Positions 14,314-19,640 of a stretch of 32,860 nucleotides of DNA are shown one piece after another. This DNA comes from Bifidobacterium breve (GTDB taxonomy: Bacteria > Bacteroidota > Bacteroidia > Flavobacteriales > Flavobacteriaceae), in assembly GCA_943323545.2 (NCBI GenBank), contig CALPIE020000014.1, positions 1 to 32,860 on the forward strand, written 5' to 3'. The number at the start of each line of letters is the position of its first letter. The stretch's first letter is position 1. Below the pieces are notes generated by a model, which saw only the letters and a program-made list of their open reading frames with translations, was not told the DNA's origin and did no database searches. A program made the position numbers and the translations under genes.

Positions 14314-15051
14314 ATGAGATTACTAAAAATTATTTTTTGGATACTATGGCGTGTTTGGTTTTATGTAGTTATGGGAACCATAATTGTGATTTTATTTCCT
14401 TTATTAATGATTTCAATACTTTCAGAAAAGTTTTATACAATGTTTTTTATGTTGGCTCGAATTTGGGCGAAAGGGGTATTGATTTTTACAGGATTTTATT
14501 ATAAAATTGAAAGAGAAGAAGAAACAATTGCAGGGAAAAGTTACATGTTTGTTGCCAATCATACTTCTATGACGGATATTATGTTGATGTTGGCGGTTGT
14601 AAAAAATCCTTTTGTATTTGTAGGAAAAAAAGAACTTGCTAATATTCCTTTATTTGGATTTTTTTACAAGCGCACCTGTATTTTGGTAGACAGAAGTAGT
14701 TCTAAAAGTAGAATGGCAGTATTTGCTAGAGCTCAAAAAAGATTAAATCAAGGATTAAGTATTTGCATTTTTCCAGAAGGAGGTGTGCCGGACGAATCTA
14801 TACTATTAGACGAGTTTAAAGATGGCGCATTTCGATTGGCGATAGAACATCAAATACCAATTGTTCCTATCACTTTTGGAGATAATAAAAAAAGAATGTC
14901 GTATACTTTTTTAAGTGGAAGTCCAGGATTAATGAGAGCCAAAGTGCATCATTTTATTCTTACTTTAGGAAAAAAACCAGAAGATAAAAAAGAAATAAGT
15001 GAACAAGTTAGAACGGTTATTTTACAACAATTACAACAATTTAACAAATAA
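14314..15051 (+). CDS. 1-acyl-sn-glycerol-3-phosphate acyltransferase (PlsC-like)
   Basis: FVANHTSMTDIM (NHxxxxD) and CIFPEGGVPDE motifs; start moved from ORF-track 14191 to ATG 14314 (MRLLKIIFW), giving a normal membrane-anchored N-terminus. Confidence 0.9.
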   Translation: MRLLKIIFWILWRVWFYVVMGTIIVILFPLLMISILSEKFYTMFFMLARIWAKGVLIFTGFYYKIEREEETIAGKSYMFVANHTSMTDIMLMLAVVKNPFVFVGKKELANIPLFGFFYKRTCILVDRSSSKSRMAVFARAQKRLNQGLSICIFPEGGVPDESILLDEFKDGAFRLAIEHQIPIVPITFGDNKKRMSYTFLSGSPGLMRAKVHHFILTLGKKPEDKKEISEQVRTVILQQLQQFNK

Positions 15052-15052
15052 A

Positions 15053-15082
15053 AAAGAGTGCCTAACTAAAGCACTCTTTTCC
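15053..15082. terminator. Hairpin terminator between convergent genes
   Basis: AAAGAGTGC-ctaactaaa-GCACTCTTT (15053-15079). Confidence 0.8.
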
Positions 15083-15137
15083 GATATTACTCGAAAGCAA
15101 TAACACCACTTAACTAATTTTAAACAAACTAACCTAA

Positions 15138-16703
15138 TTAAAAATGGTAACTTATTCCAGAGTAAACTCCAAATATATATGGTTTAAAATTTCCCGAACC
15201 AGAAGAAAAGGTGTTTAATTGATATTTAAATAGGGGTTCTATTCTTGCGTCAAATTTTTTCAAAAAGGAATATTTTAATCCCAATCCTATGTTAGTACTA
15301 AAATGAACCATATTTAAATTACTTGCTTCTCCAATTTTCATATTAAAACCAGAAGATTTAAGAAAAACATCATTTTGATTAAGAAATAAAGTACTTAAAC
15401 CACCAATAACATCTAATCCAAATTTTTTAGAAACTAATTTATATGAAACCTCTAATGGGATTTCTAGATATCCTATTTTTTGATTTATAGTTCCTTCAAA
15501 TTTATCTTCTATAATTCTGCCAAAACTAGTATTTACATTATTTAAAGGATCTATTTGAATTAATGACCCTTGTAAATTTGGATTTAAATTTTGCATTTTA
15601 CTTGCATTAGCATTTTGATAAAACACAATTCCCTTAGTGTCGTAATCAACAGAAAAGGAATTCACGCCTGTTCGTATACTGTATTTTTTATTGATGGAAT
15701 AATTAAACGTTAATCCATAACTATAATTTGTGCCATAATTTTTTTGATTTACCTCTAATTTTTGATCTAAAGGAGAACCGTTAGAAAGTGAACTAAAAAA
15801 AATAGGGGCAATGTTTGGCGATACTTGCCACCTATCTATTTTAGGAATTTTGGTAATTTTGTTTTCTTTTTCTTTAAGCAATTCTTCCAACACATTAGGT
15901 TCAACGGCCGCCAATTTTGTTGAATCTATTTTTTTAATTTCTTCCGCATTTGTTTTTGTATTTTCTGAGATAGCAAGTCCCGTTTTAGAATTTATATTAT
16001 TAGGTATTTTATCTATTGCTAAATCGGTAGCTCCAACATCAGTTTTATTTGATCTGTTTGTTATGACTTCTTGTATTGAAGTATTTAAAAAAGAAGGTTT
16101 TGTTTCTTTTTCAGAGTCTAAATTGGTTTTAATTGAATTTTGTGTTTTATTACTTGAAAGATTATTGGAAACCAATGAAGCATTTGAACTTGCAATTATT
16201 TCTTTTGTAGAAGGCCTTTTTTTATTTGAATTACTTGCTTTCGATTTATTGTTTAATACAGCTATACCTTTATTTTGTATATTTTTATTAGCTAAAGTGG
16301 TATTTATTTTATTTTCTAAAGTAGCGTTTGAGGAACGAATATTATCTGTTTTGTCTTTGTCTTTAGTTAGATTTTGAATAACTACTTCCTTATTTATAGT
16401 TGAATCAGTTAATGAATTAGCAACTTCTTTTCCTTTCGAATGATTTGGAACTGTAGTTTGTTGATTTACTATTGGATGATTAACAACAGAATTGTTATTA
16501 AAATAAGTTGTATACAATTCGAATCCGATTAGTAAAATAGCTGCAATACCAGAAAACTTAAGCCAAAACGGGACAATTCTTCTTTTTTCTTTTTTTTCAT
16601 TTAGTTTCGCTTCGATGTTATCCCAAGCCATATCAGGTGGATTAACTTCAAAATGGGCTAAATGCTCTTTAAAAAAATTATCTATATTTTTATTTTCACT
16701 CAT
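15138..16703 (-). CDS. Anti-sigma-like / outer membrane beta-barrel fusion protein
   Basis: 521 aa: cytoplasmic-like N-terminus (FFKEHLAHFEVNPPDMAWDNIEAKLNEKKEKRR), one TM (FWLKFSGIAAILLIGFELYTTYF), Asn/Ser/Lys-rich linker, C-terminal barrel (YLEIPLEVSYKL...FGVYSGISYHF). Confidence 0.8.
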   Translation of the reverse strand: MSENKNIDNFFKEHLAHFEVNPPDMAWDNIEAKLNEKKEKRRIVPFWLKFSGIAAILLIGFELYTTYFNNNSVVNHPIVNQQTTVPNHSKGKEVANSLTDSTINKEVVIQNLTKDKDKTDNIRSSNATLENKINTTLANKNIQNKGIAVLNNKSKASNSNKKRPSTKEIIASSNASLVSNNLSSNKTQNSIKTNLDSEKETKPSFLNTSIQEVITNRSNKTDVGATDLAIDKIPNNINSKTGLAISENTKTNAEEIKKIDSTKLAAVEPNVLEELLKEKENKITKIPKIDRWQVSPNIAPIFFSSLSNGSPLDQKLEVNQKNYGTNYSYGLTFNYSINKKYSIRTGVNSFSVDYDTKGIVFYQNANASKMQNLNPNLQGSLIQIDPLNNVNTSFGRIIEDKFEGTINQKIGYLEIPLEVSYKLVSKKFGLDVIGGLSTLFLNQNDVFLKSSGFNMKIGEASNLNMVHFSTNIGLGLKYSFLKKFDARIEPLFKYQLNTFSSGSGNFKPYIFGVYSGISYHF

Positions 16704-17248
16704 TTGATAGATGGAATGGAAGAATTACCGATGTTATTTTCAATTTTATCTTTTAAAATCAAGCGTGCTCTAGACAAATTTGATTTTGATGTGCCAATGT
16801 TAATATTTAATAAGTCAGCAATTTCCTGATGCGTATAGCCATCAATTACGAACAAATTAAAAATCAATCGATACCTATCAGGCAGTTCTTGTATAATTTT
16901 CAATAAATAATCTAACGAAACGGTTACTTCATCTTCTATAATAACATCAATAACTTCTGTTATTTCTTCATTTACTATACTCAAAAAAGTTTGTTTTCTA
17001 TACAATTGAAGAATATGATTAATAATTACTCTTTTTAGCCATCCTTCAAAAGATCCTTTAAATGAATACAAATGGATTTTTTCAAAAATTAATAAAAATC
17101 CATCTTGTAAATTATCTTGCGCTTCGGTATAATTACGAGAATATTTCAAGCATACAGAAAACAATTTTGGAGCATATTGTCTATATAATTGTTCTTGAGC
17201 TTTTATGTCTTTCTTTTTACAATCATTTATAAGTTGTTCTATACTCAA
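16700..17248 (-). CDS. RNA polymerase sigma-70 factor, ECF subfamily
   Basis: LQDGFLLIFEKIHLYSFKGSFEGWLKRVIINHILQLYRK (region 2) and LPDRYRLIFNLFVIDGYTHQEIADLLNINIGTSKSNLSRAR (region 4). Confidence 0.96.
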   Translation of the reverse strand: MSIEQLINDCKKKDIKAQEQLYRQYAPKLFSVCLKYSRNYTEAQDNLQDGFLLIFEKIHLYSFKGSFEGWLKRVIINHILQLYRKQTFLSIVNEEITEVIDVIIEDEVTVSLDYLLKIIQELPDRYRLIFNLFVIDGYTHQEIADLLNINIGTSKSNLSRARLILKDKIENNIGNSSIPSIK

Positions 17249-17259
17249 GGTATTACTTT

Positions 17260-17670
17260 TTAATGATCTACAACTGCATCATATTCAATAAATTGATCTA
17301 TACCGCCAACATCTTCACCAGACCAAAATTTAAAATGATAGGTGCCAATTTCTGTTGGTTTAAAACGCAATGGAACTTCGATAATTGTTACATTGTCAGT
17401 TTGACAACTAGCTTGAGTTGCTCTTGCACTATATATTGCAACAGTTCTGTCAAAATTGTTTTTAGCATAATAAAAACTATTAAAAAAATGACAAGAAGTT
17501 GGACGTATATATTTCACCGGAATCTCTGTTATACTATCTTTCGCATAAGCTGTAGGCATATTAACTTCACTAACAGGGAGTGTTTCTAATGTTAATTCAG
17601 GTTGTCCGCTATTAAGCTCACAAGATGATAGTAAAAAATAAAAAGGAATAAATAAAATAATTTTTCTCAT
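17260..17670 (-). CDS. Small hypothetical lipoprotein
   Basis: Signal peptide with lipobox (FLLSSC); 136 aa; 11 nt upstream of the sigma factor on the same strand. Confidence 0.7.
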   Translation of the reverse strand: MRKIILFIPFYFLLSSCELNSGQPELTLETLPVSEVNMPTAYAKDSITEIPVKYIRPTSCHFFNSFYYAKNNFDRTVAIYSARATQASCQTDNVTIIEVPLRFKPTEIGTYHFKFWSGEDVGGIDQFIEYDAVVDH

Positions 17671-17733
17671 AATGTTCTATTTAATATTGTTTCAAGATGA
17701 ATGTTTTAATATATGGTTGCGTAAAAAAGTAAA

Positions 17734-17765
17734 AAAAAACCCGTCAAGCGGATTTTTTAATTTTT
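17734..17765 (-). terminator. Terminator downstream of recA
   Basis: AAAAAACCCG-tcaag-CGGATTTTTT imperfect hairpin next to the recA stop. Confidence 0.6.
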
Positions 17766-17766
17766 T

Positions 17767-18771
17767 TTAATTGTTATTTGATTTAATCAAATCCTTAATT
17801 TTTTGTTCAAGTTCCTCAGCAAGTTCTGGATTATCTTTTATTAAAACTTTAACAGCGTCTCGACCTTGACCAAGTTTAGTGTCGCCATAGCTAAACCAAG
17901 ATCCTGCTTTTTTAATGATTTCAAATTCGACAGCTAAATCGAGAATTTCGCCTGTTTTTGAAATTCCTTCACCATACATAATATCAAATTCGGCCGTTTT
18001 AAATGGTGGAGCTACTTTATTCTTTACTACTTTAACTTTTGTTCTGTTTCCAATAACATTATCGCCGTCTTTAATTTGAGAAGAACGTCTGATATCCAAA
18101 CGAATAGAAGCATAAAATTTTAACGCATTACCACCTGTCGTTGTTTCTGGATTTCCAAACATTACGCCTATTTTTTCTCTTAATTGGTTGATGAAGAAAA
18201 CAGTACAATTGGTTTTGCTAATAGTTCCAGTCAGTTTTCTTAGTGCTTGCGACATTAAACGAGCGTGTAACCCCATTTTAGAATCACCCATTTCGCCTTC
18301 AATTTCACTTTTTGGCGTTAATGCAGCAACCGAGTCAATAACTACGATATCAATAGCCCCGGATCTAATTAAATTTTCTGCAATTTCTAAAGCTTGTTCT
18401 CCATTATCGGGTTGTGAGATAATTAAGTTTTCAATATCTACACCTAATTTTTCAGCATAATTTCTATCAAATGCATGTTCGGCATCTATAAAGGCAGCAA
18501 TTCCACCAGCTTTTTGTGCTTCTGCAATTGCGTGTAATGTTAAGGTAGTTTTTCCTGAAGACTCTGGGCCATATATTTCTATGACTCTTCCTTTAGGGTA
18601 TCCGTTTACTCCTAAGGCTAAATCGAGACCCAATGAACCAGAAGAAATAGTTTCTACTTCTTCAACTGCTTTGTCTCCCATTTTCATTACGGTTCCTTTG
18701 CCGTAAGTTTTGTCTAATTTGTCAAGCGTTAATTGTAATGCTTTTAACTTGGCTTCTTTTTCTGTGCTCAT
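17767..18771 (-). CDS. recA: Recombinase RecA
   Basis: [22 protein letters not shown] Walker [53 protein letters not shown]. Confidence 0.99.
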
Positions 18772-18905
18772 CTTTACTATATTTAATTGGCAATTAATTT
18801 TGTAAAAATAAATATTTTTTTAATGTAAAACGAGTTTGTAAAAACGAGTTTTAAACAATCGTAACCCAAAATTATTATGTAACTTTGTTATCATTTTTTT
18901 TATAA

Positions 18906-19640
18906 ATGGAAAAGCTTATTTCTTATCCAATTTCGATTGTTTATTACTTATGTTTTGTTAGTTGTTTGATAATTTTTCATCCAATTCAATGGATTTGTTT
19001 CAACATATTTGGCTACCAAGCTCATAAAAAAAGTGTTGATTATTTGAATTTTTGCCTAGAAAAATGTACGCTCCTTTTAGGAACATGGTTTCAATTTAGA
19101 AACATCAATTACGTGCCTAGAGGGGTACCCATTATCTTTGTTGCCAACCACCAAAGTTTGTATGATATTATCGGAATTATTTGGCATTTGCGACGATTTC
19201 ACGCCAAATTTGTAAGCAAGAAAGAGTTGGGCCGCGGAATTCCAAGCGTATCCTACAATTTAAGGCATGGAGGTTCCGTTCTTATAGATAGAAAAGACCC
19301 CAAACAAGCCATACCAACCATTAAAGGGTTAGGAGAATATATTGAAAAACATAAAAGATCAGCAGTTATTTTTCCTGAAGGAACAAGAAGTAAAGACGGT
19401 ACACCAAAGAAATTTTCTGAAAATGGTTTAAAAATTTTATGCAAATATGCACCATCAGCAGTTGTTGTCCCTATTTCAATTAATAATTCATGGAAATTAG
19501 TTAAATTTGGGACCTTTCCAATGGGGCTAGGAAACAGATTGGAATTTATAATTCATGAACCAATAAAAGTAAAGGATTTTCCATTTGAAGTATTGATGGA
19601 GAAAGTAGAAAAATCGGTTGTACAATCAATAAGAAATTAA
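18906..19640 (+). CDS. 1-acyl-sn-glycerol-3-phosphate acyltransferase (PlsC)
   Basis: FVANHQSLYDI (NHxxxxD) and VIFPEGTRSKDG motifs. Confidence 0.95.
   Translation: MEKLISYPISIVYYLCFVSCLIIFHPIQWICFNIFGYQAHKKSVDYLNFCLEKCTLLLGTWFQFRNINYVPRGVPIIFVANHQSLYDIIGIIWHLRRFHAKFVSKKELGRGIPSVSYNLRHGGSVLIDRKDPKQAIPTIKGLGEYIEKHKRSAVIFPEGTRSKDGTPKKFSENGLKILCKYAPSAVVVPISINNSWKLVKFGTFPMGLGNRLEFIIHEPIKVKDFPFEVLMEKVEKSVVQSIRN

Follow-up and report, generated by a model that had tools for sequence, protein, structure and literature searches.

Gene content and borders of the locus

The window, that is, the whole stretch of 32,860 nucleotides analysed here, contains three consecutive minus-strand genes encoding a small lipoprotein, an ECF sigma factor and a 521-aa protein (Table 1), the last of which is called Dma below for its likeness to the dual membrane-spanning anti-sigma factors. 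The three ORFs were found at the coordinates given in a first-pass annotation of this DNA, and both the 11-nt spacing between the lipoprotein and sigma factor genes and the ATGA shared by the sigma factor stop and the following start were confirmed in the sequence. This overlap is not due to chance, since it measures 4 nt in 73 of 196 sigma/Dma gene pairs and 1 nt in 39 more. Terminator-like hairpins 3' of recA and 3' of the Dma gene delimit the three-gene unit. No Rfam element was detected within positions 14900-19000, matches to sigma-70 type promoters were rarer than in shuffled sequence, and the three genes of the cassette include no TonB-dependent receptor or FecR domain.

Table 1. Positions of the cassette features in the window
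Feature	Position	Strand	Basis
Terminator-like hairpin 3' of recA (upstream border)	17734..17758	-	
Predicted sigma-dependent promoter, ACGCAACC-N15-CATCT	17694..17722	-	Conserved before the lipoprotein gene
Lipoprotein gene, 136 aa	17260..17670	-	ORF; lipobox Cys17, beta-sandwich fold
ECF sigma factor gene, 182 aa (TTG start in the window reading)	16700..17248	-	Pfam Sigma70_r2 and Sigma70_r4_2
ATGA, shared by sigma stop and Dma start	16700..16703	-	Sequence
Probable Dma-type anti-sigma factor gene, 521 aa	15138..16703	-	ORF; AlphaFold2 domain anatomy; homologues
Dma residues 1-45, cytoplasmic two-helix putative anti-sigma domain	16569..16703	-	AlphaFold2 and coevolution
Dma residues 46-68, TM helix, KEKRR just before	16500..16568	-	AlphaFold2, sequence
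Dma residues 69-291, largely disordered tether rich in Asn, Lys and Ser	15831..16499	-	pLDDT, composition
Dma residues 292-521, 8-strand outer-membrane beta-barrel, end SYHF	15141..15830	-	AlphaFold2, Foldseek
Terminator-like hairpin 3' of the Dma gene (downstream border)	15050..15082	-	

The sigma factor matched the Pfam families Sigma70_r2 (E 1e-13) and Sigma70_r4_2 (E 6e-16) and could be aligned to the solved ECF sigma factors SigW, SigE and RpoE. It is ECF-like by Pfam and scored under the NCBIfam cut-offs of TIGR02985 and NF058625. Its exact start in the window is uncertain, TTG being the earliest possible start here and in most relatives.

Cys17 and Cys60 of the lipoprotein were invariant in 66 cassette-lipoprotein sequences. 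The AlphaFold2 model showed a beta-sandwich (pLDDT 91), for which Foldseek returned generic beta-sandwiches and no significant match, and neither Pfam nor NCBIfam gave a match for the protein. An identity as NigD was considered and rejected: NigD_N (PF12667) matched neither the lipoprotein nor anything else in the genome.

Domain anatomy of the 521-aa protein

An AlphaFold2 model of the 521-aa protein was built with 77 homologues. The first-pass annotation had proposed a short cytoplasmic segment, a TM helix at about residues 45-67, a linker of roughly 220 residues and a C-terminal barrel ending in F. All of these parts, barrel and TM helix included, were predicted by the model, with the TM helix at residues 46-68. 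The cytoplasmic part comprises two helices (residues 5-18 and 24-38) of moderate pLDDT (about 67-83), followed beyond the membrane by a region with pLDDT <50 across most of residues 77-265. The barrel (residues 292-520) has eight strands modelled at pLDDT >90 almost throughout, and Foldseek matched it to OmpA (TM-score 0.71, target-normalised) and other small outer-membrane barrels. The protein as a whole had no match in Pfam or NCBIfam, and a sequence search of the PDB returned no Dma relative.

Comparison of the homologues revealed that the parts differ in how freely their lengths vary. The cytoplasmic part measures 45 aa (5-95%: 43.8-46) and contains the invariant residues P22, W27 and I30. 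The barrel measures 235 aa (CV 1.7%), whereas the tether, which in the window is 223 aa long and consists of 16% Asn, 13% Lys and 11% Ser, has a median of 212 aa and ranges from 120 to 372 aa (CV 19%). A C-terminal F was found in 76 of the 77 homologues, 69 of which end in YxF or FxF.

Distribution and gene neighbourhood

The expectation that similar proteins occur in other Bacteroidota was borne out: a Dma homologue was present in 167 of 201 sampled Flavobacteriaceae genomes, and further loci were recovered from distant members of the phylum. Within the same genus, 34 of 61 genomes gave a Dma match at E 1e-10. When genome contigs were scanned with the Dma protein as query, no relatives were found; these were recovered with the sigma factor as query. 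A search of the neighbourhood of sigma genes for proteins with TM helix, linker and barrel, as had been suggested, placed a Dma homologue directly downstream of the sigma relative in 106 of 108 loci, most of them overlapping by 4 or 1 nt, and a lipoprotein gene upstream of it in 95. Across the 196 sigma/Dma loci, the lipoprotein gene precedes the sigma gene in 166 and is missing from 30.

Most loci share the order recA - lipoprotein - sigma - dma - plsC - trpS. The three genes also stay together in loci where no recA was found (L077, L099, L102, L103, L107, L108 and L110). In distant Bacteroidota the N-terminal module fronts differing C-termini, and a sigma gene adjoins it in 18 of 20 fetched loci. 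Three of these distant sigma-linked proteins (L296, L297 and L301) carry the same module in about 750-900 aa and lack a terminal aromatic residue, so they are possibly barrel-less. From such sequences, it appears that the anti-sigma module may have been joined, by shuffling, to other parts in the periplasm or at the surface.

Coevolution of the sigma factor and the Dma N-terminus

Mean-field direct coupling analysis was applied to 192 paired sequences of the sigma factor and the Dma N-terminus. The strongest coupling joined sigma R162 to Dma D8 with a score of 5.48, against 2.65 for the runner-up, and shuffled pairings (n=12) gave at most 1.89. Because shuffling also strips shared ancestry, couplings of barrel columns and of the lipoprotein were added as controls. 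On the same 107 rows, the sigma factor and the Dma N-terminus reached 4.23, compared with at most 3.08 for the sigma factor and barrel columns, and the control with the lipoprotein gave at most 2.25. The R162/D8 pair thus stands above the phylogenetic background. Couplings ranked below it fell inside the range of the phylogeny controls, including that between helix 2 and region 2 (Dma P23/sigma Q44).

The residue pairs at sigma 162 and Dma 8 are R-D (154), K-E (26) and K-D (6), with R-E never observed. These positions underwent 10-12 changes on the tree, with co-change in about five of seven supported independent pairs and the opposite in none; the tree-based sign test taken by itself is borderline (median p 0.06). 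Sigma R162 aligns with RpoE R178 in structure 1OR7 (query 5-170 vs chain 12-189), provided that the 194-residue chain bears a three-residue tag, as its length suggests. In class I anti-sigma factors, helix 1 contacts region 4 through RseA D11 and RpoE R178/R149 (PMC7406223). As the R162/D8 coupling matches this known contact, the Dma N-terminus is, judged from sequence, very probably an anti-sigma domain. The topology and the sigma/anti-sigma pairing proposed in the first-pass annotation are backed by the structure model, gene adjacency and coevolution. No outcome that the annotation had listed as refuting came up: a barrel and a TM helix are predicted, the homologues sit beside sigma genes, and coevolution speaks indirectly for sigma binding by the N-terminus.

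A conserved promoter and its candidate regulon

In the window, the predicted promoter upstream of the lipoprotein gene reads ACGCAACC-N15-CATCTT (17722-17694). Its consensus across relatives is ACGCAACC(T/A)TT...GCATCTA, with the general form ACGCAACC-N14/15-CATCT. The core CGCAAC-N16/17-ATCT precedes the lipoprotein gene in 136 of 162 loci (spacer of 17 in 125 and of 16 in 11), against a mean of 0.1 in shuffled sequence, and it is kept with the cassette in loci without recA, e.g. L099, L103 and L107. The strict form occurred in 83 of 121 family genomes, and a reversed control gave almost no matches. It was present in 82 of 108 genomes with Dma and in none of 10 without (p 3e-6, with the cassette's own promoter counted and relatedness and genome size uncorrected). 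This co-distribution and the logic of autoregulation point to the cassette sigma factor as the probable reader of the promoter. A text search of the literature did not turn up the promoter sequence, which counts for little because such motifs can rarely be searched as text.

The DNA downstream of 86 distinct promoter sites was read for target ORFs. With the cassette lipoprotein excluded, an ORF with a lipoprotein signal followed 26 of 63 sites, compared with 26 of 559 background ORFs (p 5e-15). The count is conservative, as several ORFs classed as "other" or "tiny" are lipoproteins whose start or lipobox was missed. Recurrent target families include an LVIVD-repeat lipoprotein (5 loci), a group of 141-281 aa (6 loci) and a group of about 147 aa (4 loci). 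At least two acidic residues follow soon after the lipoprotein Cys in 73 of 82 cassette lipoproteins and 19 of 26 target lipoproteins, against 13 of 26 background lipoproteins. Such residues fit what we take to be the Bacteroidota surface export signal, which the window lipoprotein (CELNSGQPE) matches only weakly.

A SusC-like TonB receptor follows the promoter in four loci. One of them belongs to the window's own genome (L200; Plug and CarboxypepD_reg domains), in which the only other full-consensus site lies on contig C7 near 19936, 138 nt before the SusC-like gene; the orthologues in L249, L278 and L284 have the promoter 141-145 nt ahead. The window's genome thus holds two convincing sites, its own operon and the SusC-like gene, and the wider regulon therefore rests on relatives. 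The neighbouring genes plsC, topA and trhO were rejected as targets, with lipoprotein or tiny ORFs found directly after those sites.

Two families of tiny ORFs were also observed behind the promoter. In seven loci (L221, L222, L260, L264, L268, L273 and L293) an ORF for a hydrophobic one-helix peptide of 28 aa (e.g. MKILIIISILIVINLILLTFSVNKKTEP) starts 20-28 nt after the ACGCAACC promoter, in several of them with a terminator-like hairpin close behind; it would represent an unannotated small membrane peptide. A peptide of 30 aa with the C-terminus CKADGG (CKLDGG in L234) was found in nine loci (L206, L211, L213, L215, L218, L229, L234, L237 and L238), behind a second promoter copy that is separated from the cassette by recA, with a trhO-like gene downstream. 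In L279 and L285 the promoter is followed by a hairpin and T-run within about 100-150 nt, with no clear ORF between, and L279 has two near-identical promoter copies 222 bp apart. These units are possibly small RNAs.

Proposed mechanism and alternative readings

The anatomy of Dma, the coupling of the genes, their coevolution and the conserved promoter with its distribution are direct outcomes of the computation. We consider it highly likely that the cassette is a Dma-type tethered anti-sigma system reaching from the outer membrane to the cytoplasm. Given where the promoter lies, ahead of the lipoprotein gene and, in further copies, ahead of other lipoprotein genes, a SusC-like receptor gene and two families of tiny peptides, the cassette probably acts as an autoregulated sensor in the outer membrane and drives a regulon rich in lipoproteins.

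For the binding of the sigma factor by Dma, its release and the signal, we infer the following sequence of events. The N-terminal ~45 residues of Dma would bind the ECF sigma factor and keep it at the inner membrane, with at least one holding contact between helix 1 (D8) and sigma region 4 (R162). Through the TM helix, the ~220-residue disordered tether and the C-terminal barrel, the same chain would be anchored in the outer membrane. A trigger there, be it a ligand, failed barrel assembly or tether cleavage, would free the sigma factor, which would then transcribe its own operon from ACGCAACC-N15-CATCT and yield more lipoprotein, sigma factor and anti-sigma factor. In relatives, it would also transcribe many lipoprotein genes, the SusC-like receptor and small membrane peptides. 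A broader proposal, to which we give even chances, is that the recA-linked Dma system of Flavobacteriaceae governs a regulon of surface lipoproteins as its master regulator. Its dedicated ACGCAACC-N14/15-CATCT promoter, also driving the SusC-like receptor and the two unannotated tiny peptide families, would then serve a response of this phylum to outer-membrane stress, or one that remodels the surface, and RseA, Cpx and Rcs parts would play no role in it.

Two sub-models of the release step are compatible with the Dma reading and do not exclude it. The first, which is quite possible and falls somewhat short of even odds, needs no ligand: BAM insertion of the Dma barrel itself would be the signal. 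Failed assembly would expose the YxF/FxF end and lead to cleavage, first periplasmic and then within the membrane, cf. DegS and RseP acting on RseA. The almost universal C-terminal F argues for it, as does a barrel of near-constant length beside a freely varying tether, which is expected if anchoring matters, and lipoproteins make up most of the predicted targets. Such a C-terminal end is unspecific, however, because it is common to most outer-membrane barrels, and the authors of the Dma2 study prefer surface glycan sensing (PMC13088901).

The second sub-model, which we regard as rather doubtful, makes the lipoprotein a sensor or co-sensor that binds the Dma barrel, so that its absence or saturation frees the sigma factor. 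A feedback loop would follow, because the lipoprotein is made from the sigma-dependent promoter. It would explain a gene that comes first after the promoter and precedes the sigma gene in most loci, those away from recA included. Against it stand the 30 sigma/Dma pairs without a lipoprotein gene and the coupling analysis, in which no lipoprotein/barrel coupling rose above background.

The third reading, in which the 521-aa protein is a standard OmpA-like barrel whose hydrophobic segment near the N-terminus is there by chance and which has no anti-sigma role, would agree with the lack of a Pfam or NCBIfam family but is very improbable in view of the conserved cytoplasmic module with its three invariant residues, the coevolution of the N-terminus with the sigma factor, the recurrence of the same module before other C-termini beside sigma genes across the phylum, and the known Dma precedent.

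Comparison with known systems

In FecR/FecA-type signalling, three separate proteins, FecA, FecR and TonB, relay the state of the outer membrane to an ECF sigma factor in the cytoplasm. The Dma-type cassette resembles these systems in reporting from the outer membrane to a sigma factor, but uses one polypeptide instead of three proteins. With RseA/RpoE of class I (PMC7406223) it shares the pairing of an acidic residue in helix 1 with an Arg in sigma region 4, here D8/R162 by coupling. Class I anti-sigma factors have a four-helix domain with helix 4 on region 2, whereas the Dma of the cassette has two helices in the 45 residues before its TM helix, so its cytoplasmic domain resembles class I and is nevertheless non-canonical. 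This Dma further differs from RseA and other class I members in that its chain continues into a predicted outer-membrane barrel. With the D8/R162 pair there is a defined handle for proving that a single chain connects the outer membrane to a sigma factor in the cytoplasm.

The first-pass annotation knew of no defined mechanism for such a protein. This view is outdated, as the anti-sigma factors of the Dma family have exactly this anatomy. According to PMC13088901 (J Bacteriol 2026), Dma was described in Bacteroides thetaiotaomicron in 2024 (PNAS, 10.1073/pnas.2321910121, cited therein) and consists of an N-terminal anti-sigma domain, a TM helix, a long disordered tether and a C-terminal barrel. 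Dma is reported from Bacteroidota only, with the Dma1 and Dma2 genes adjoining ECF21 sigma genes (Das1 and Das2). When dma2 is deleted, the dma2 operon is among the most strongly raised targets and more vesicles are produced, both depending on das2; Das1 increases the expression of nigD1 (PMC13088901). In its anatomy and its logic the cassette is thus already known, since the Dma of B. thetaiotaomicron has the same four parts beside a sigma gene.

Outer-membrane sensing in Bacteroidota is poorly known, and a widespread Dma with a recognisable promoter offers a testable regulon in tractable species, e.g. Flavobacterium. It would also tie Dma proteins outside Bacteroides to the output of lipoproteins. 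The cassette, likened by published description to Dma1/Das1 and Dma2/Das2, has the four-part protein and the adjacent ECF sigma gene in common with them. It differs in having a lipoprotein gene first, in its place between recA and plsC/trpS in most genomes of the family, and in the lack of a NigD_N match in the window's genome. To the known Dma systems, the present analysis adds the Flavobacteriaceae-wide occurrence, the R162/D8 coupling and a conserved promoter with lipoprotein-rich candidate targets.
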